Part shown: in pieces, positions 2,635 through 28,269 of the stretch
Layout of the letters: each line of letters opens with the position of its first letter
Position numbering within the stretch: position 1 is the stretch's first letter
From: Alphaproteobacteria bacterium
GTDB lineage: Bacteria > Pseudomonadota > Alphaproteobacteria > UBA9219 > RGZA01
NCBI GenBank assembly: GCA_033762625.1
Contig: JANRLI010000011.1
Coordinates: forward strand, 62,001-126,000
Reading direction: 5' to 3'
DNA: 64,000 bases
The notes under the pieces: generated by a model
Told to the model about the DNA's origin: nothing
What the model saw: only the letters and a program-made list of their open reading frames with translations
Database searches by the model: none
Program-made: the position numbers and the translations under genes

Positions 2635-2673
2635 ACATATTATTGCTCAAACGCCGCACATATATATAAGGGG

Positions 2674-6422: not shown

Positions 6423-8066
6423 TTATTGTCCGCGTACATCGCGCATAAGTGATTCAATCAACTCGGCCGATGGCTCACCGTCGGGATATACCGAATGATC
6501 ACGCTGGTACGCGCGAATGGCGGATGCTGTTTGCGGGCCATATTCCCCGTCAACACGGTCCACTTTGTAACCCAAGACACGCAACATGCGCTGGATTGCT
6601 TTGTTGTCGGCTTTTGCCTGTTCTTTGCTCATGCCTACTTGCGTTGATGGCGCGGGTGTTGGGACCGATGCAACAACCGGTGTTGCGGAGTAAGCAGGGC
6701 TGATGGAATTATCAATCTCATTCGCAATCTGTTGTGCGATGGCAGGCGTCATGGGTTGTTGAATTTGCGCCTGTGCTTGGGGCGGCGCAGGTACAAAAAT
6801 ATCATTCGCGGGGATGCTGTTTTGTGCGCCTTGCCCACCGACACCTGCGGTGGGTTGAATCATTTGCTGAATTTGCTGCGCAGGCGATTGTGCAGACGGC
6901 GCATAGCTTGGTTGCTGGTATTGTTGTTGCGGGATTTGTTGCTGCGCTTGTGCGCCTGCGGTCAAGCGTTGGATGGCTTCGGCTGCTTTTGCGTCGCCTG
7001 CTGCTGCGCTGCGTTGATACCATGCAAGTGCGGTTTCAATATCGGGCGCGCCATCAGCGCCGGTTTCATAGATGCGGCCAAGTTCGGTGTAGGCTTGGGT
7101 AACGCCTGCTTTGCCCGCTGCCTGAAACCAGCGGATAGCTGCGTTGATGTCGGTTTTGCCGATATTGCCGCCCTGATTTGCATAGGCAAGCCACATCATC
7201 GCTTCCTTTTCACCTGCATCTGCTGCTTGGCGGATCATTTCCACGGCAAAGGCTTGGTCACGTTGCACACCATCCCCTTTGAGGAACTTAGCAGCAATCA
7301 GCAACTTGCCTTTCTTGTCGCCGCTTGCTTCGCGGTTGAATAACGGTTGCCAATCGGGCGGCACGGCTTGACCACTTGCGGCCAATTTATTTTGAACAGA
7401 AATCTGGAACGGGCTTAACCGTGGTTGCACAGGCTGCTGGTAGGCAGGTTGCGCGGGCGGTGACAAATACGCCTGAGTGTTGCGCTGTGTTGTTTGCTGG
7501 TCATAGCGTGCACCAAGTGCGACAGGTGCCGGTGCACGAAATGATGGCGCTTGGATTTGCGGCATTTGTTGTTGCGCTGGCGGCGCATAATTATTGGCGT
7601 TTGCAAAATTTGGTGTATAGGTTTGCTGGGCTTGCGGCATTTGCACGGGTGCTGCTGGTGCAACAGGCGCAGCCATTTGTTGTTGAATGCTGCGTTGCTG
7701 AATGGCTTGCGCGTTTGCAGCAGCAGGCGCATTGCCACGCGGCCAGAATGCAACCGCGAGAATGGTGACCATGACGCAGCCTGCAAGAATGCCGAGATAT
7801 TTATTTTGACGGTTACGTTCCTGAACATATACCGCCTGAAAATTTTTCAACGATTGTTCGAAATAGGTGAGCGATGAATCCACATTCTTTAAACGCTGCG
7901 CATGGCTCGCGAGATGAAGCGCTACATCAAAATTATCGTCCTGCTGATCCTCGGCCCACTGTTCTTGGTATTTGGGGTCTTGATAGCGCTCGTCTTGGAC
8001 ATATTGTTGCTGTTGCTGCTGGCGGGGCGACTGCGCGCGTGATCTTAAGGAAGTTGGATGTGCCAT
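6423..8066 (-). CDS. Sel1-repeat protein with TM segment and C-terminal peptidoglycan-binding domain
   Basis: 547 residues. It has a polar, Gln-rich N-terminus (six consecutive Gln near residues 16-21), one transmembrane helix at about 90-108, a long Gln/Ala/Pro linker, Sel1-like TPR repeats at about 240-370 (for example AMMWLAYANQGG and AYTELGRIYETG) and a C-terminal peptidoglycan_binding_1 domain at about 475-545 (IQRMLRVLGYKVDRVDGEYG). The layout suggests a bitopic inner-membrane protein with the repeats and wall-binding domain in the periplasm. It resembles the architecture of alphaproteobacterial polarity or division factors, but no specific orthologue can be claimed. It is divergent from the M23 peptidase at 8443. 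Confidence 0.8.
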   Translation of the reverse strand: MAHPTSLRSRAQSPRQQQQQQYVQDERYQDPKYQEQWAEDQQDDNFDVALHLASHAQRLKNVDSSLTYFEQSLKNFQAVYVQERNRQNKYLGILAGCVMVTILAVAFWPRGNAPAAANAQAIQQRSIQQQMAAPVAPAAPVQMPQAQQTYTPNFANANNYAPPAQQQMPQIQAPSFRAPAPVALGARYDQQTTQRNTQAYLSPPAQPAYQQPVQPRLSPFQISVQNKLAASGQAVPPDWQPLFNREASGDKKGKLLIAAKFLKGDGVQRDQAFAVEMIRQAADAGEKEAMMWLAYANQGGNIGKTDINAAIRWFQAAGKAGVTQAYTELGRIYETGADGAPDIETALAWYQRSAAAGDAKAAEAIQRLTAGAQAQQQIPQQQYQQPSYAPSAQSPAQQIQQMIQPTAGVGGQGAQNSIPANDIFVPAPPQAQAQIQQPMTPAIAQQIANEIDNSISPAYSATPVVASVPTPAPSTQVGMSKEQAKADNKAIQRMLRVLGYKVDRVDGEYGPQTASAIRAYQRDHSVYPDGEPSAELIESLMRDVRGQ

Positions 8067-21455: not shown

Positions 21456-21477
21456 ACCAAAACTAATGGAGACATGG

Positions 21478-22695
21478 ATGACTGACTTGATGGAAATCAA
21501 GGCGGCAACGGGTGAGCTTGCTCATGCGTTTGAAGCCTTTAAAGAAGCAAATGATGAACGACTGGCATCGCTGGAACGCAAGCGCGGCGATGTGGTATTG
21601 GAAGAAAAAGTTGATCGCATCAATAGCGATGTAACCAAACTGCAAGATACGGTTGCGGCATTTAAAACCGCATTCAAACGCCCCGGTAAAGCGGGCGAGA
21701 TGGTTCAAGAACCATCCGAACACAAGCGCGCATTTTTGCGTTATGTCACGAAGGGCGCGGAGCAGGATCTATCCGGTCTTGAAGCCAAGGCGATGAGTGT
21801 CATTTCAGACCCTGATGGTGGTTATCTGGTTCCTTCGGAAATGTCAGACCGAATTATCACGCGCCAGTTTGATACAACCCCAATGCGCCAATTGGCAACC
21901 GTGATGACCGTATCATCGGATGCCGTTGAAATGCTGCGTGATACGGATGACAGCGAAGCATTTTGGGTCAGCGAGCTGGATAGCCGCGTTGATTCAGAAC
22001 CCGGTCAATTTGGCCGTATCCGCATTTCGGTGCATGAATTACATGCGCAGCCAAAAGCAACGCAAAAACTGCTCGATGATGCAAATGTGAATGTTGAAGA
22101 GTGGATTATCGGAAAAATTGCGGCACGCTTTGCACGCCGTGAAAACGCAGCTTTTGTCACCGGTGATGGTGTGGCTCAACCACGCGGTTTCACCAGTTAT
22201 TCGGTTGCGGCAACTGCCGATGCAACCCGCCCATGGGGTACGTTTGAATATTTTCCATCTGGCGCAGCGGCCGCATTTGCTTCAACCGCCCCAGCTGATG
22301 CGATTATCAGCCTGATGCATAAATTAAAGGCAGGGTATTTGCCAAACGCATCATGGCTGATGCCGCGCGCGGTATCCGAACTCATCCGTAAGATGAAGGG
22401 CACAACCAATGACAGCTATTTGTGGCAGCCAAGCTTGCAAATCGGCACACCGGCAACCTTGCTGGGCTTCCCGGTTTATCTTGGGGAAGACATGCCAGCC
22501 GTGGCTGCGAGCAGCTTGTCACTGGCATTTGGTAACTTTGCTGAAGCCTACACCATTGTTGACCGTATTGGCATGCGTATTTTGCGTGATCCATTTACCT
22601 CCGCACCATTTGTTAAGTTCCGTTGCACCAAGCGTGTTGGCGGCGATGTTACCAATTTTGATGCGTTGAAATTCCTGCGCTTCAGCGTTTCGTAA
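21478..22695 (+). CDS. GTA major capsid protein (gp5-like, HK97 fold)
   Basis: 405-residue capsid precursor. The N-terminal ~80 residues are helical scaffold-like delta domain (MTDLMEIKAATGELAHAFEAFKEANDERLASLERK). The shell domain follows, starting with SVISDPDGGYLVPSEMSDRII, with RENAAFVTGDGVAQPRGF and SWLMPRAVSELIRKMK as HK97-capsid landmarks. The ATG at 21478 has GGAG 6 nt upstream; 21466 is an alternative. A ~59-bp repeat copy begins at its stop codon. Confidence 0.95.
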   Translation: MTDLMEIKAATGELAHAFEAFKEANDERLASLERKRGDVVLEEKVDRINSDVTKLQDTVAAFKTAFKRPGKAGEMVQEPSEHKRAFLRYVTKGAEQDLSGLEAKAMSVISDPDGGYLVPSEMSDRIITRQFDTTPMRQLATVMTVSSDAVEMLRDTDDSEAFWVSELDSRVDSEPGQFGRIRISVHELHAQPKATQKLLDDANVNVEEWIIGKIAARFARRENAAFVTGDGVAQPRGFTSYSVAATADATRPWGTFEYFPSGAAAAFASTAPADAIISLMHKLKAGYLPNASWLMPRAVSELIRKMKGTTNDSYLWQPSLQIGTPATLLGFPVYLGEDMPAVAASSLSLAFGNFAEAYTIVDRIGMRILRDPFTSAPFVKFRCTKRVGGDVTNFDALKFLRFSVS

Positions 22696-22753
22696 AATAG
22701 CTCAAATGCTGCATGGCATGCCCGCATCAGTGGGCATGCCAGCGGTCGCTGAC
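22695..22753 (+). repeat. Intergenic ~59-bp repeat, copy A
   Basis: Begins AATAGCTCAAA at the capsid stop and ends with the hairpin CAGCG-GT-CGCTG. This copy also has a perfect 9-bp stem GGCATGCCC/GGGCATGCC with an 8-nt loop in the middle. It shares its ends with copies at 25430 and 25688. Confidence 0.8.
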
Positions 22754-22783
22754 ATAACTATTATTCAAATTAGGAGATAACTC

Positions 22784-23176
22784 ATGGCTTTAAAAGATCT
22801 TGAAAACAGAATTAGCGTTGCGCAAAGCCTTGCGCCTGCGGTGCGTAACGCAACAGCAAATGGCACGGGCATTGATTTGCAGGGCTTTAATTCGGCAATG
22901 GTGGTGTTCAATTTTGGTGCATGGACAGATGGAACACATACACCCTCACTGCAACATTCAACCGATAACTCTACCTATGTGACCTGCGACAGTAATTCGA
23001 TGAACGGCACATTTGTTGCTGTATCAAGCGGCGCGGGTGCAAACACCATTCAGAAAATCGGTTATACGGGCGGGTATCGTTACATCCGCGCGGTGATGAC
23101 TGTTTCGGGCGCAACAACAGGCGCTGCTGCAAATGCGGTGGTGCTACGCAGCCATCCGGCGGTAGGTCCGGTTTAA
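22784..23176 (+). CDS. Probable head decoration/stabilisation-like protein after the capsid gene
   Basis: 130 residues starting MALKDLENRISVAQSLAPAV, followed by a Gly/Thr/Ser-rich beta-strand-type region (GIDLQGFNSAMVVFNFGAWTDGTHTPSLQ) and YRYIRAVMTVSGATTGAAAN. Proteins of this look are found next to capsid genes in tailed phages. A role on the capsid surface is inferred from position and the beta-rich composition. It is not part of the canonical Rhodobacter GTA set. It has a good AGGAGA ribosome site and is followed by an intrinsic terminator. Confidence 0.6.
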   Translation: MALKDLENRISVAQSLAPAVRNATANGTGIDLQGFNSAMVVFNFGAWTDGTHTPSLQHSTDNSTYVTCDSNSMNGTFVAVSSGAGANTIQKIGYTGGYRYIRAVMTVSGATTGAAANAVVLRSHPAVGPV

Positions 23177-23222
23177 TTAGCGTATAATAAGTAATCCCAA
23201 GCTAACGTAGTACTAACTCAAG

Positions 23223-23255
23223 GGCAGGTTTGCAGCGATGCAGCCTGCCTTTTTC
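23223..23255 (+). terminator. Intrinsic terminator inside the GTA cluster
   Basis: GGCAGG (23223-23228) pairs with CCTGCC (23244-23249), with an inner TGCA/TGCA pairing around GCGA, followed by six T (23250-23255). It lies between the capsid/decoration block and the connector genes. Confidence 0.75.
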
Positions 23256-23272
23256 TTTTAAGCAGGTTTTTC

Positions 23273-23926
23273 ATGACAGCATTGGTCCGAACCACGCCGC
23301 CAGCAAGCGAGCCGATAAGTCTTTCGGAAGCTAAAGCGCATGTGCGCGTGAGCATTAGTGATGATGACGCATTGATAACCAATTTGATTACAGCAACACG
23401 GATGATATGCGAAGAGTTCACTGGCCGCGCACTGATAACGCAAGGATGGCGGTTATGGCTTGATACATTTCCAGGCGACCGCTTGGCGTGGTGGGATGGA
23501 ACACGCGAAGGCGCGGCATCGAAACTAACGGTGAAGCGGTTTATTCTCATGCCGCGCGCGCCATTGCAAAGCATTAGCGCCGTAAATGTATATGCCGACG
23601 ATGATAGCAGCGTTGTTTTTTCGCCCACGCTATATTTTGTAGATAGCAATGCCGAGCCAGGGCGGTTGGCGTTGCGCAATAACGCATCATGGCCAGTGCC
23701 ACAACGCGCAAGCAACGGAATTAGCGTTGATTTTACCGCGGGATATGGCGCGGCAAGCGCGGTACCGCAGGCATTGAAGCAAGGCATGCTCGCGCACATT
23801 GCACAGCTTTATGAACATCGCGGCGAAGGGCTGCGTTTAAATGGGGATGCACTTTCGGTGAAGGCTTTGCCGGATATTGTTCAGGCGCTTTACCAGCCAT
23901 TCCGCGTACAGCGTCTGCGTTACTAG
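23273..23926 (+). CDS. GTA head-tail connector (gp6-like)
   Basis: 217 residues. The N-terminus PPASEPISLSEAKAHVRVSISDDDALITNLITATRMICEEFTGRAL is the hallmark of gp6/phiE125 gp8-type adaptors that bind below the portal. The C-terminus ends with VPQALKQGMLAHIAQLYEHRGEG. It probably forms the ring between portal and head-closure protein. Its expression must read through the upstream terminator or use an unseen promoter. Confidence 0.88.
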   Translation: MTALVRTTPPASEPISLSEAKAHVRVSISDDDALITNLITATRMICEEFTGRALITQGWRLWLDTFPGDRLAWWDGTREGAASKLTVKRFILMPRAPLQSISAVNVYADDDSSVVFSPTLYFVDSNAEPGRLALRNNASWPVPQRASNGISVDFTAGYGAASAVPQALKQGMLAHIAQLYEHRGEGLRLNGDALSVKALPDIVQALYQPFRVQRLRY

Positions 23927-23937
23927 GGGAATTTCAG

Positions 23938-24264
23938 ATGTTCGGAATCGGAACTTACCGTCAGCGCTTATATGTGCAGCAGGAAAACCCGGTTGCGGAT
24001 ACTGGCGGCGGCAATGCCATGGCGTGGACCACCATCAATACCATTTGGGCATCGATTGAACCTGTTAGCGGCAATGAACAAATGATTGCAGGCAAGCCAA
24101 GCGGCACGGTTACACATCGCATTCATACGCGTTATGACGCAACCATCACACCCGCGATGCGGCTTATGCTGGGTAGCCGCATCTATAATATCCGTTCCAT
24201 CAAAAATATTCAGGAACGCAACCGCGTATTGGAAATTCTTGCCGAAGAAGGCGTCGCGACATGA
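23938..24264 (+). CDS. GTA head closure protein (gp7-like)
   Basis: 108-residue head-tail joining protein. The N-terminus YRQRLYVQQENPVADTGGGNAMAWTTINTIWASIEPVSGNEQ and the middle THRIHTRYDATITPAMRLMLGSRIYNIRSIKNIQERNRVLEILAEE match the SPP1 gp16-like head-closure family. Position between connector and tail-terminator genes agrees. Its stop overlaps the next start by 4 nt (ATGA). Confidence 0.88.
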   Translation: MFGIGTYRQRLYVQQENPVADTGGGNAMAWTTINTIWASIEPVSGNEQMIAGKPSGTVTHRIHTRYDATITPAMRLMLGSRIYNIRSIKNIQERNRVLEILAEEGVAT

Positions 24265-24668
24265 CCACATCACTTTTTGCAGTGCAGGAAGCTGTGTATG
24301 GTGCACTGACATCCAGCACAGCACTGCAAGCATTACTGGGTAATCCGGTTCGATTATATGATGTGATACCACCTGCTGCGTTGTTTCCATATGCGACGCT
24401 TGGCGATGTATTGATAAAAGAATTTGATACAAAAGACCAGACCGGATTTGAGCAATCACTCATTCTGCATGTGTGGTCGCGTTACCGCGGGCGCAAGGAA
24501 CTCAAGCAAATCATCCAGACCATTTATGATGTGTTGCATAACAGTGCACTGAGTATAACCGGCGCAAATTATGTATCTTGCCAGTTTCAATCCGCCAGCA
24601 CGCTTCAGGAAAATGATGGCCTGACGCTTCATGGCATCCTTCGTTACCGAATAATTGTTCAGCATTAA
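24261..24668 (+). CDS. GTA tail terminator-type protein (gp8-like, DUF3168)
   Basis: 135 residues. The DUF3168 pattern is visible: AVYGALTSSTALQALLGNPVRLYDVIPPAALFPYATLGD at the N-terminus and LILHVWSRYRGRKELKQIIQTIYDVLHN in the middle. In GTAs and siphophages this protein caps the tail tube at the head interface. Coupled to gp7 by a 4-nt overlap. Confidence 0.88.
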   Translation: MTTSLFAVQEAVYGALTSSTALQALLGNPVRLYDVIPPAALFPYATLGDVLIKEFDTKDQTGFEQSLILHVWSRYRGRKELKQIIQTIYDVLHNSALSITGANYVSCQFQSASTLQENDGLTLHGILRYRIIVQH

Positions 24669-24683
24669 AACCAGGAGAAGAAT

Positions 24684-25097
24684 ATGACCCAAAACGCCCG
24701 AACCGGACGGACCTTGCTGATTGCCGATGGCACAGGAGTTGGCGCAACCGTGATTGCTGCGATGCGATCGACGAATTTTACTATTCAAGGCAAGGCCGTT
24801 GATGTCACCGATAAAAGCAGCACCAACCAATACCGAGAATTATTGGCAGGTGCTGGCGTGGTTAGCGTAACCGTTGGAGCCAAGGGATTGCTGAGCGGTT
24901 CAACACAAACGCAAACACTTGTCACAAGGGCGATTAGCCGCAGCGTAGATAGCTACCGGATTACCTTTGATAACGGCGATGTATTGGAAGGACCATTCCA
25001 GTTGGTACAGTTTGAAGCAGCGGGTGATTATAATAACGAGCAAACCTATCAGCTTAGTTTTGAATCCGCTGGCGCGCTCACATTTACTACGGTGTAA
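24684..25097 (+). CDS. GTA major tail tube protein (gp9-like, TP901-1 family)
   Basis: 137 residues. It starts MTQNARTGRTLLIADGTG and continues ATVIAAMRSTNFTIQGKAVDVTDKSS; ending EQTYQLSFESAGALTFTTV. This is the tail-tube family pattern of stacked hexameric rings. There is a clear AGGAGAAG ribosome site. Very short for a tube protein but typical for GTA gp9. Confidence 0.9.
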   Translation: MTQNARTGRTLLIADGTGVGATVIAAMRSTNFTIQGKAVDVTDKSSTNQYRELLAGAGVVSVTVGAKGLLSGSTQTQTLVTRAISRSVDSYRITFDNGDVLEGPFQLVQFEAAGDYNNEQTYQLSFESAGALTFTTV

Positions 25098-25098
25098 T

Positions 25099-25431
25099 AT
25101 GACGGGTGTAGCGATGCGTGAATATAATCCGGCGCGCGGCGATGTGCTGATCAGTCTTTTGGAATATGAATTCATCATGCGCCCCAGTTTTCATGCGATT
25201 GCATTGCTGGAAGAGCATTTCAAACGGGGTATAATCGATATTGCCCGCGATTACCATAATAGCAAAATTTCCCATGCCGGTGATTTTGTAGCCATTGTGC
25301 AGGCAGGATTAAAAGGTGCGGCGCAAGACGTGCCTGCTGATTTGCCAGACAGGATTATTGGCACGGGGTTAACGCAAATTATCGAACCATGCGGGAAGTT
25401 TCTAGCCCACGCTTGTGGAATAAAATGTTAA
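25099..25431 (+). CDS. GTA gp10-like tail assembly chaperone
   Basis: 110 residues. The pattern YNPARGDVLISLLEYEFIMRPSFHAIALLEEHFKRGIIDIA, followed by HAGDFVAIVQAGLKGAA, matches the GTA gp10 family (phage tail assembly chaperone type). It starts 1 nt after the gp9 stop; a later in-frame ATG at 25114 is also possible. The frame runs upstream into gp9, but that part is not coding. A repeat copy begins at its stop. Confidence 0.85.
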   Translation: MTGVAMREYNPARGDVLISLLEYEFIMRPSFHAIALLEEHFKRGIIDIARDYHNSKISHAGDFVAIVQAGLKGAAQDVPADLPDRIIGTGLTQIIEPCGKFLAHACGIKC

Positions 25432-25488
25432 TAGCTCAAACGCCGCATGGCTTCGCTCGCATTGGCTCGCGGGCCAGCAATCGCTGTC
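25430..25488 (+). repeat. Intergenic ~59-bp repeat, copy B
   Basis: AATAGCTCAAACGCCGCA start, two direct GCTCGC units 4 nt apart in the middle and a CAGC-AATC-GCTG terminal hairpin. It lies between gp10 and gp10.1. Reading it as coding would give gp10.1 an artificial 15-residue N-terminus. Confidence 0.82.
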
Positions 25489-25491
25489 CTT

Positions 25492-25692
25492 ATGGATGAG
25501 TTCACAAAAAATGCGATGGGTACAGCCTGTGGCGTAATGGGCTGGGCACCAGACGTGTTTTGGCAAGCAACGCCATTTGATTTATTAAACGCGTGGCATG
25601 GGTATGAAACATTTCATGGCCTGAAACCCGCGAATGATTTGACGCATGCTGACGTGCGCGAGTTAAGAAAAATATTAAACGACTTAAAATAG
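25492..25692 (+). CDS. GTA gp10.1-like tail assembly chaperone
   Basis: 66 residues from MDEFTKNAM. The core GVMGWAPDVFWQATPFDLLNAWHGY matches the small phage tail assembly chaperone family (GTA gp10.1), in which a Trp-Pro-Asp-x-Phe-Trp core is typical. The ATG at 25492 is chosen because the frame upstream (from 25447) is made of repeat copy B. The ribosome site is weak. The TAG stop lies inside the start of repeat copy C. Confidence 0.78.
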   Translation: MDEFTKNAMGTACGVMGWAPDVFWQATPFDLLNAWHGYETFHGLKPANDLTHADVRELRKILNDLK

Positions 25693-25747
25693 CTCAAACG
25701 CCGCAAGGCTTTGCTCGCATAAGCTCGCGGGCCAGCGGTCGCTGCCT
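25688..25747 (+). repeat. Intergenic ~59-bp repeat, copy C
   Basis: Nearly identical to copy B: AATAGCTCAAACGCCGCA, GCTCGC-ATAA-GCTCGC, then CAGCG-GT-CGCTG. It lies between gp10.1 and gp12, where canonical GTAs carry gp11. Confidence 0.82.
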
Positions 25748-25760
25748 TTAAGGATAAAAA

Positions 25761-26387
25761 ATGGCCTTTGATGAAGTTCAGTTTCCGTTACGCGTAGGTT
25801 TTGGCAGTTCCGGCGGGCCAGCCTTTTCAACCGAAATCGTTACGATTGATGGCGGGTATGAACGTCGCAACCAGAACTGGAGCCAGGCGCGCAGACATTT
25901 TGATGCATCAACAGGTTTACGTAATGCAAGCGATGTTGCAACGCTAATTACATTCTTCCATGCGCGCGCGGGTCGTGCACGGGGTTTTCGTGTGAAGGAC
26001 TGGAGCGATTATACAAGCGCAGCAGATGGCCTTTCCGCCAGTGCATTTAATGATCAGAGTATCGGCACGGGTAATGGCACACTTACGCAATTTCAACTCA
26101 AGAAAAACTATATCAGTGCCAGTATTACCCATGCACGCGATATACGAAAACCTGTTTCAGGCAGCGTGACCATTGGCGTAAATGGTGTGCAGGCATTAAG
26201 CGGGTGGAGCGTGGATACTGCAACCGGTATTGTCACCTTTGCGACGGCGCCGATTGCTGCTGCCGCGATTACCGCTGGCTTTACCTTTGATGTTCCTGTG
26301 CGGTTTGATACCGACCAGCTACGTTTAAGCGCGCAGGACTTTCAGCAATATACATCCAGTATTCCGTTGGTGGAGGTGCGGGTATGA
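25761..26387 (+). CDS. GTA distal tail protein (gp12-like, DUF2460)
   Basis: 208 residues. The DUF2460 pattern is clear: FDEVQFPLRVGFGSSGGPAFSTEIVTIDGGYERRNQNWSQARRHFDAS, then ATLITFFHARAGRARGFRVKDWSDY and the C-terminal PVRFDTDQLRLSAQDF. In the GTA particle this forms the distal-tail ring that connects tube and baseplate. Overlaps the next gene by 4 nt. Confidence 0.92.
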   Translation: MAFDEVQFPLRVGFGSSGGPAFSTEIVTIDGGYERRNQNWSQARRHFDASTGLRNASDVATLITFFHARAGRARGFRVKDWSDYTSAADGLSASAFNDQSIGTGNGTLTQFQLKKNYISASITHARDIRKPVSGSVTIGVNGVQALSGWSVDTATGIVTFATAPIAAAAITAGFTFDVPVRFDTDQLRLSAQDFQQYTSSIPLVEVRV

Positions 26388-27229: not shown

Positions 27230-27633
27230 CGCAAATCATGCGTCACGTTTTGACGGCCCGTGGACGTGAAGAATAAACATTCGTGCTGATCACCGCGGTA
27301 ATCCACATGATGGACTTTTTTATCGAGCATCCATAAACGCAGTTCGCAATTGTATTGAGAACGCTTGCTTTTGCCCAAGAGGTAAGACGTTTTGCGGTTG
27401 TATTGCATAAGCTTGAAACCGTTATCCAGTGAAATGGAACGGTTGGGCGGACCGTAAAGCGTGATTAATTGGTCGCGGGTCAGGCCAACAAGACGGCGAT
27501 TAAGTTCAATATCCGTTTCGGTGTTGCCATTCTGTAGCTCACCTTCGCCGCCATAGCTGTGCAATCGTGAACCAATGCATCCGCTGATGGATAGTAATAA
27601 GAGGCAGCAACACATACGAAGAAAGATATGCAT
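27226..27633 (-). CDS. Small lipoprotein with BamE/SmpA-like pattern, inserted between gp13 and gp11
   Basis: 135 residues from MHIFLRMCCCLLLLSISGC, a lipoprotein signal with lipobox SISGC. A mature domain follows: LNRRLVGLTRDQLITLYGPPNRSISLDNGFKLMQYNR and YNCELRLWMLDKKVHHVDYRG, resembling the short BamE/OmlA fold (GLT-x-x-Q-x-x-x-x-YGPP). Its ATG at 27633 has AAAGG 7 nt upstream on the minus strand and shares bases with the plus-strand ATG at 27628. It is convergent with gp13 (4-nt overlap). The role in the GTA is unknown; it may be an unrelated insertion. Confidence 0.7.
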   Translation of the reverse strand: MHIFLRMCCCLLLLSISGCIGSRLHSYGGEGELQNGNTETDIELNRRLVGLTRDQLITLYGPPNRSISLDNGFKLMQYNRKTSYLLGKSKRSQYNCELRLWMLDKKVHHVDYRGDQHECLFFTSTGRQNVTHDLR

Positions 27634-27636
27634 CCG

Positions 27637-28269
27637 ATGACCTTTGACGCGAATCAACAAGAAATACAAGAAGCAACGCAGAAGACAGACGATGGCTTTA
27701 AGCGCGCAGGAAAATCATCCGATGAACTTACCGCTAAACTTGATAAACTCAAACAAGAATTTTCTAAAACATCTGATGTTATCAAGGATAGCTTTGCGAA
27801 ATCGTTAGGCGATGCGATTAAGGGCAGCGACACATTTTCAAACGCGTTTGATAAAATCCGCAAATCACTGGAAGATTTTACTATTAAAGCCGCTGTTATC
27901 AATCCGCTCAGCGATATTCTGTTTGGCGGTGATACCCCTCGTCTTGATAGCATCACAAAGATCGGCGATGTTTTGCCGACTAGAGGCACTGGCGGTTTGC
28001 TTGGTGATTTGACCAATGGCATCGCCGATTTATTCGGTGCGCGTGCGTTTGGCGGGCCAGTTGCTGCGGGGCAACCTTATCTGGTTGGGGAGCGCGGGCC
28101 AGAATTGTTTGTGCCGCAAACATCAGGACGGATAAACCCAGATGTTGGTAGCGCCGTAAGCATTGTGATGAACATTACCACAAATGACGCTGCAAGTTTT
28201 CAAAGTAGCCAGACACAAATTGCCGCATCGATGATTGATGCAGCACGCAGAGCACAGCGGATTAGATAA
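27637..28269 (+). CDS. GTA short tape-measure protein (gp11-like), displaced
   Basis: 210 residues. The N-terminal half is a helical heptad-like region (TAKLDKLKQEFSKTSDVIKDSFAKSLGDAI). The C-terminal half has the tape-measure end pattern AFGGPVAAGQPYLVGERGPELFVP and IVMNITTNDAASFQSSQTQIAASMIDAARRAQRIR, which closely follows GTA gp11 C-termini. In canonical GTAs gp11 lies between gp10.1 and gp12; here it lies after gp13. The start could be 27628 (overlapping the divergent lipoprotein start) or 27637. Neither has a strong ribosome site. Confidence 0.85.
   Translation: MTFDANQQEIQEATQKTDDGFKRAGKSSDELTAKLDKLKQEFSKTSDVIKDSFAKSLGDAIKGSDTFSNAFDKIRKSLEDFTIKAAVINPLSDILFGGDTPRLDSITKIGDVLPTRGTGGLLGDLTNGIADLFGARAFGGPVAAGQPYLVGERGPELFVPQTSGRINPDVGSAVSIVMNITTNDAASFQSSQTQIAASMIDAARRAQRIR

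Follow-up and report, generated by a model that had tools for sequence, protein, structure and literature searches.

The stretch of DNA analysed here, referred to as the window, comprises 64,000 nucleotides of the genome of an Alphaproteobacteria bacterium (assembly GCA_033762625.1, contig JANRLI010000011.1, positions 62,001–126,000). It carries a gene transfer agent (GTA) cluster, in which three related short sequences follow the genes gp5, gp10 and gp10.1. These sequences belong to a dispersed, genome-wide family of tiny DNA elements consisting of three hairpins, which are very probably mobile.

The three copies lie on the + strand at the positions given in the original prediction, and each begins at the stop codon of the preceding gene or overlaps it (Table 1). 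The stop codon of gp10.1 (TAG, 25690–25692) is supplied by the 5' AATAG of copy 3. All copies have in common AATAGCTCAAA and a CAGC-loop-GCTG hairpin; copy 1 has ATGCTGCA in place of the ACGCCGCA of copies 2 and 3. The perfect 9-bp stem attributed to one copy is found in copy 1, where GGCATGCCC (22715–22723) pairs with GGGCATGCC (22732–22740). The GCTCGC units reported for copies 2 and 3 are 10 bp apart and form, in our model, a hairpin with a TC/TC internal loop. Copies 2 and 3, 258 bp apart, agree at 59 of 68 positions (87%); the best match in 100 dinucleotide shuffles of the window was 39/68.

A 14-base identical piece was also present where it had been predicted (Table 1), and this 14-mer occurred in none of the shuffles. 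It corresponds to the 5' end of the element only (E 0.86), was not picked up by the covariance-model search of the genome, and may be an element remnant. The adjoining gene (1284–2471, − strand) matches N6_N4_Mtase and RAMA; the name CcrM is that of the original prediction.

Table 1. Copies of the element and adjoining genes in the window. SL1–SL3 denote hairpins 1–3.
Feature	Position	Strand	Context	Score or Pfam match
Copy 1	22696..22757	+	after gp5 stop (22693-22695); SL3 22740-22751	63.9 bits
Copy 2	25430..25492	+	between gp10 and gp10.1; overlaps gp10 stop TAA (25429-25431); SL1 25442-25451, SL2 25454-25472, SL3 25475-25486	80 bits
Copy 3	25688..25750	+	between gp10.1 and DUF2460 gene; SL3 25733-25744	80.7 bits
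14-base piece	2645..2658	+	identical to element 5' end	
GTA gp5 (major capsid, Phage_capsid)	21466..22695	+	upstream of copy 1	PF05065, 1.6e-82
GTA gp10 (Phage_TAC_11)	25099..25431	+	upstream of copy 2	PF11836, 1.3e-6
GTA gp10.1 (tail assembly chaperone, Phage_TAC_6)	25492..25692	+	between copies 2 and 3	PF09550, 4.7e-7
DUF2460 gene	25761..26387	+	downstream of copy 3	PF09343, 1.1e-74

The DUF2460 gene stands directly 3' of gp10.1 (window positions 25688–26387). A short open reading frame (ORF) at 27628–28269 may be the displaced tail-tape protein, judging by the gene order of RcGTA.

A dispersed family with three hairpins

Searching the whole source genome (2.23 Mb, 26 contigs) by pattern and by BLAST revealed more copies on many contigs and on both strands. 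A covariance model (R1) was built from 13 copies of this genome (alignment A1; about 19 copies were then known). R1 detected 23 copies in the source genome at E<1e-6, the covariance-model E-values resting on a short calibration. The similarity is thus not limited to a local duplication, the outcome that would have refuted the original prediction. The ends of the element often coincide with stop codons.

At E≤0.01, R1 found 35 copies in G002 and nine in G001, both congeners of the source organism, and far fewer and weaker matches in most other relatives. A match at this threshold was seen in 28 of 59 genomes, many of these surely by chance. A second alignment (A2) contains the 64 copies with E≤1e-5: 23 from the source genome, 33 from G002 and eight from G001. 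In the GTA region, source genome and G002 have about 82% identity; G001 is less similar to the source genome than G002.

Since 20 of the 23 copies lie outside the GTA cluster, the link to the GTA is not specific, and the location of the three window copies looks incidental. A GTA-specific packaging or regulatory signal is rejected on the same count. Three of 23 copies fell into one 15-kb GTA stretch in only 5 of 10000 random placements, the stretch having been picked after the fact. Copies also cluster in the source genome, with four adjacent pairs less than 600 bp apart; 10000 random placements gave 0.14 such pairs on average and never more than 3. Copies 2 and 3 seem to have arisen by local spread.

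The unit is about 59 bp long, and up to about 76 bp where the first hairpin is longer. It consists of a single-stranded 5' end CTCAAACGCC (consensus NNNN[AG]CTCAAAC), hairpin 1, TT, hairpin 2, hairpin 3 and CTTA. Hairpin 1 is GCC-GYAA-GGC, with a longer arm in some copies. Hairpin 2 is CGCtcGC-ATAA-GCtcGCG; in 36 of 64 copies its TC/TC forms no pairs, and most of the remaining copies have paired bases there instead. The stem of hairpin 3 is very variable in sequence, and its loop is usually NGTC (GGTC or AGTC).

In the 13-copy alignment, 85.7% of the cells are paired, and changes on both sides occur at six of the seven pairs of helix 3. Over the whole structure there are 17 double-change cells compared with 4.5 ± 1.9 in shuffles (0 of 500 as high), a signal that is destroyed when partner positions are slid. 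As related rows easily exceed such shuffles, the variety of third stems (CAGC/GCTG, CTGC/GCAG, CGAC/GTCG, GGC/GCC and others) is the stronger point. Among orthologous copies (15 pairwise comparisons, 13 sites), 14 cells had changed on both sides and still paired, and 17 had changed on one side and still paired; 199 were unchanged, nine gapped, and in 16 the pairing differed or was missing. Quasi-palindrome repair could yield such matching arms without selection, but the retained TC/TC mismatch indicates that not everything is repaired. On the element strand, G-U exceeds A-C (31 vs 18), with ratios of 11:3 in antisense and 15:7 in sense copies (small numbers). Being as large in antisense as in sense copies, the excess may not follow transcription.

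Sites occupied by the element

The position of the 64 copies relative to genes was determined with gene calls from a purpose-written codon-usage script. Upstream and downstream genes were, relative to the element, both in the same sense in 17 cases and both opposite in 15; the combinations opposite/same and same/opposite were found 12 and 11 times. Six copies are inside ORFs in antisense, and three overlap an ORF in sense; by inspection, three of these nine are terminal overlaps or start miscalls. Where the upstream gene has the same sense, 15 of 28 copies start within −5 to +1 nt of its stop codon (hand count), or 16 copies in all with gp10.1, which the gene caller missed. Where the downstream gene is opposite, 9 of 26 copies end within −3 to 0 nt of its stop (hand count), so that the terminal TTA is the TAA of that gene in most of them. 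Among 47 copies from other Alphaproteobacteria, with genes called by the same script, the arrangements were same/same 12, opposite/opposite 12, same/opposite 11 and opposite/same 4, with four copies in an ORF and four lacking one flank. The presence of both orientations speaks against an obligatory strand-specific RNA signal.

Six copies reside in real genes, at five independent sites: in MutM/Fpg of G001 and G002 (by position, one ancestral site), in a UbiG-type methyltransferase, dihydroorotate dehydrogenase (PyrD) and a ferritin-like protein of G002, and in MltA of the source genome. The name UbiG is our reading of a generic methyltransferase match, and the ferritin-like label a reading without Pfam match. 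All six copies are antisense to the gene and use a single reading frame, adding about 18–24 residues that resemble DDRRSASLCERSPAASE; the protein is uninterrupted in species without the copy. Four of the six frames are free of stop codons, in 27–30 of 36 full-length copies. If these four frames were equally likely, five independent sites in one frame would be expected with a chance of about 1/256. Hydropathy hardly distinguishes the four open frames (antisense-1 −0.81, sense-2 −0.75). In MutM, the insert comes just ahead of the conserved DPRRFG, between residues 105 and 108 of PDB 6tc6, and the PDB alignment of PyrD likewise breaks at the insert. AlphaFold prediction of the insert-bearing MutM from three sequences had a mean predicted confidence (pLDDT) of 39, and the model was not used.

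A further copy lies in a structured RNA. The P3 arm of thiamine pyrophosphate (TPP) riboswitches is variable. In the source genome, the copy before a thiC-like gene lies within a TPP aptamer (L062:1462-1632; 62.3 bits, cut-off 54.3), the P3 loop of which holds 81 nt. The CATTCCAAGAGGTGC segment preceding the element is conserved in G001 and G002. Their TPP scores are 46.5 and 54.2, and Infernal aligns both differently; for this reason we can only infer the P3 layout in these two species.

Comparison of the congeners revealed occupied and empty sites. The source genome and G002 have in common the three GTA copies, the copies at the thiC-like gene, in the rplK leader and 3' of tRNA-Trp and tRNA-Asp, and several others; the counterpart of copy 1 in G002 is more usual in form. 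The comparison with G002 covered the sites of the source genome other than L034, L035, L040-L043 and L047-L049. The source copy at C13:99241, directly 3' of a glycosyltransferase stop codon, is missing in G001 and G002. The copy in the MltA-type gene corresponds to a 54-bp gap in G002, and G002 has a second tandem copy at a place where the source genome has none. Among the G002 copies for which no counterpart was known in the source genome, the seven in L113, L114, L120 and L125 were checked at the corresponding sites of the source genome and were absent from all of them. Aligned empty sites include those of the copies in the ferritin-like, UbiG and PyrD genes and of L113:2453, L114:2064 and L120:7708; the alignments of L114:2064, L120:2077 and L120:7708 show the absence and leave the exact junctions imprecise. 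Two of the seven (MutM and L113:2453) are also present in G001. The MutM copy is accordingly present in G001 and G002 and absent in the source genome. The copy just before rplK is, in addition, a candidate for a co-opted leader element.

Known repeats and distant relatives

A search of Rfam 15 matched no family at the gathering score or at E≤1 apart from tRNAs, which rules out a known Rfam RNA. The literature that we covered on palindromic and intergenic repeats in Alphaproteobacteria did not describe the element; subscription papers lay outside it, and a prior description is possible. Full-text search with 10-mers of the element gave only unrelated topics among the matches listed. RIME and related rhizobial mosaic repeats, which are short, intergenic, palindromic mosaic elements, may be similar in kind.

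The closest parallels are two kinds of palindromic repeat. Rickettsia palindromic elements (RPEs) are likewise palindromic and dispersed, and are found both between genes and in frame within conserved genes (here MutM, UbiG, PyrD, MltA and the ferritin-like gene). RPEs are described as 105–146 bp long with terminal inverted repeats, and as occurring also inside tmRNA and RNase P (M1) RNA (PMC2229807), comparable to the TPP riboswitch of the source genome. That description sets RPEs apart from the present element, which is about 59–76 nt long, has three side-by-side hairpins and occurs outside Rickettsia. The GTAG/CGTC repetitive extragenic palindromes (REPs) are located near gene 3' ends, where their termini give stop codons, and include intragenic copies of 20–30 amino acids, many in DNA repair genes (Di Nocera 2013, PMC3733652). 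The element resembles them in all three respects, MutM being a repair gene. It differs from GTAG REPs in having neither a GTAG tag nor a single 20–40 bp palindrome: full copies start with NNNN[AG]CTCA and form three hairpins. From CGTC REPs it differs by the absence of a CGTC/TGTC/CCTC tag, an 8–9 bp stem and a CCA tail. CIR, a CcrM-associated intergenic repeat of Caulobacter and Brucella, contains GANTC, has stops in all frames and is described as never intragenic; like the present element, CIRs are alphaproteobacterial, have separate hairpin arms and are not classical miniature inverted-repeat transposable elements (MITEs) (PMC2229807). Intragenic copies exist here, however, and GANTC is found in only 3 of 64 copies, which excludes identity with CIR. 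As the GTAG/CGTC tags, the single palindrome, the RPE length and ends, GANTC and, in the source genome, a REP-associated tyrosine transposase (RAYT) are all lacking, we regard the element as a family of its own.

Elements with the same order of parts in GC-rich form (CTCARACGCCGGGCG-stem-ATCC-stem-CTTGGCT, hairpin 2, and hairpin 3 with NGTC) occur in other families. A model built from 23 copies (R2; 86.4% of its cells are paired, and tandem G-U pairs occur in 18 and 17 rows) was positive at E≤1e-6 in at least 31 of 385 sampled Alphaproteobacteria genomes. Among 398 Pseudomonadota genomes there were at least 10 positives, all Alphaproteobacteria. Both counts are floors, as only the best 12–13 candidates per genome were scored, and R2 under-counts AT-richer relatives, since it recovered only two copies of the source genome at E≤1e-6. 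An earlier pattern search had matched 58 of 385 genomes, with many chance matches; reversed-pattern controls also matched. Holders include plasmids of Niveispirillum, Azospirillum oryzae and Tistrella (partial), and metagenome-assembled genomes of Kiloniellales, Rhodospirillales and 'Micavibrio'. Matches of the GC-rich form on Burkholderia plasmids are without the 5' end and seem to be due to chance.

Some relatives carry the element in composite or tandem form. In G043 (L203-L210, L224-L228) it is inside a near-identical composite of about 190 bp with outer hairpins and inverted ends (ATACCAG...CTTAGTAT), a unit resembling bacterial interspersed mosaic elements or MITEs. In G336 (L211, 2468–2770), three tandem copies follow each other in steps of 114–115 bp between a Pterin_bind gene and a phosphoglucomutase-type gene. 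G030 contains a CGTC-REP-like repeat (CGTCATTCC...GGAATCC; L111:1470-1540), the inner arm of which (GCGAGCTTATGCGAGC) is the reverse complement of hairpin 2 of the element; judged from this sequence, an exchange of arms between repeat families is possible. A second dispersed repeat of about 60–80 bp (TACTATTGTATGTGTTTCACGTGAAACATTTTYGATAA) is present at about 12 places in the source genome (e.g. C3:37149, C25:93091, C2:933, C16:81887) and in G002 (L120:5660-5740, 7800-7890). Within its larger repeated frame lies a parS-like palindrome, TGTTTCACGTGAAACA.

Probable mobility and its alternatives

The element is very probably a non-autonomous mobile palindrome of the broad REP/RPE kind. Its set of traits resembles that of small mobile palindromes, so that by analogy it may work like an RPE or an intragenic REP. 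The original prediction had considered REP-like mobile elements, and this fits the dispersed copies in both orientations, the polymorphic sites, the gene ends and the intragenic copies. The hairpins would be important for the copying or capture of a single-stranded DNA (or RNA-templated) form. The mobilizing machinery would act in trans and need not be a RAYT: capture of the folded single strand at replication or repair, or a trans-acting transposase, would both fit. Insertion may be roughly untargeted, the survivors marking tolerated sites, namely gene 3' ends (to which the element brings its own stops), protein loops in one frame and variable RNA loops. The GTA copies would then be chance or locally spread residents.

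Several observations weigh against mobility of this kind. Target-site duplication is not consistent: the sole candidate is an 8-bp direct repeat, CTCATATA, on both sides of the C13:99241 copy. The distribution of the MutM copy requires precise loss or repeated insertion. RAYT (Y1_Tnp, PF01797) is absent from the source genome, controls being positive in 5 of 14, and the 10 ORFs examined near the multi-copy loci L211 and L189 include no transposase. Source genome and G002 share an identical rplK-leader copy with diverged flanks (L059:1501-1563, L118:7770-7832), and some copies may have a function because they are strongly conserved in place.

This conservation raises the alternative of a cis-acting RNA element (a 3' UTR (untranslated region) stabilizer, attenuator or processing site, the last being the second reading in the original prediction) selected in place, for instance to set the expression ratios of gp5, gp10, gp10.1 and the next gene. 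The three GTA copies at the same junctions in G002, the compensatory changes within orthologous copies and the copies 3' of tRNA-Trp and tRNA-Asp in both species are consistent with it. Orientation is indifferent to the genes, however, intragenic copies are read antisense, copies are gained and lost, and the G-U over A-C excess is as large in antisense as in sense copies, small as the numbers are; we consider such an element unlikely as a general explanation. The rplK-leader, TPP-loop, GTA-junction and tRNA-3' copies are all the same old and structurally maintained, so that secondary RNA roles are possible.

Movement of a known GTAG or CGTC REP family by a RAYT is more improbable still. Gene ends, stop-supplying termini and intragenic copies of 20–30 amino acids are described for such REPs, CGTC REPs being likewise described as without known transposase (PMC3733652), but the element shows three hairpins instead of a tag with a single 8–9 bp stem, and the source genome lacks Y1_Tnp. 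To a local duplication confined to the GTA operon we give almost no credence: copies 2 and 3 are close and similar enough, and the pair at 25430/25688 may be explained by local spread, but 20 further copies lie elsewhere in the genome.

Returning to the mobile palindrome, a stronger version of that reading is conceivable, with the chances rather against it. It would see an ancient pan-alphaproteobacterial element, spread as a folded single strand via host replication or repair with no dedicated transposase. A host protein would recognize the invariant features that take no part in Watson-Crick pairing, namely the TC/TC internal loop of hairpin 2, the tandem G-U pairs in hairpin 1 and the NGTC loop, and the antisense frame would be tuned to a harmless linker peptide.

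Selfish palindromic DNA that stays in frame is known chiefly from Rickettsia, and tagged REPs from other bacteria. The element described here, which has a three-hairpin anatomy of its own, would add a third kind, present in GTA-bearing Alphaproteobacteria and in much of the class. The occupied and empty genes of congeners (MutM, UbiG, PyrD) provide natural pairs in which movement and protein tolerance may be tested. Annotation would benefit as well, because the inserts mimic lineage-specific protein segments or odd riboswitch arms.

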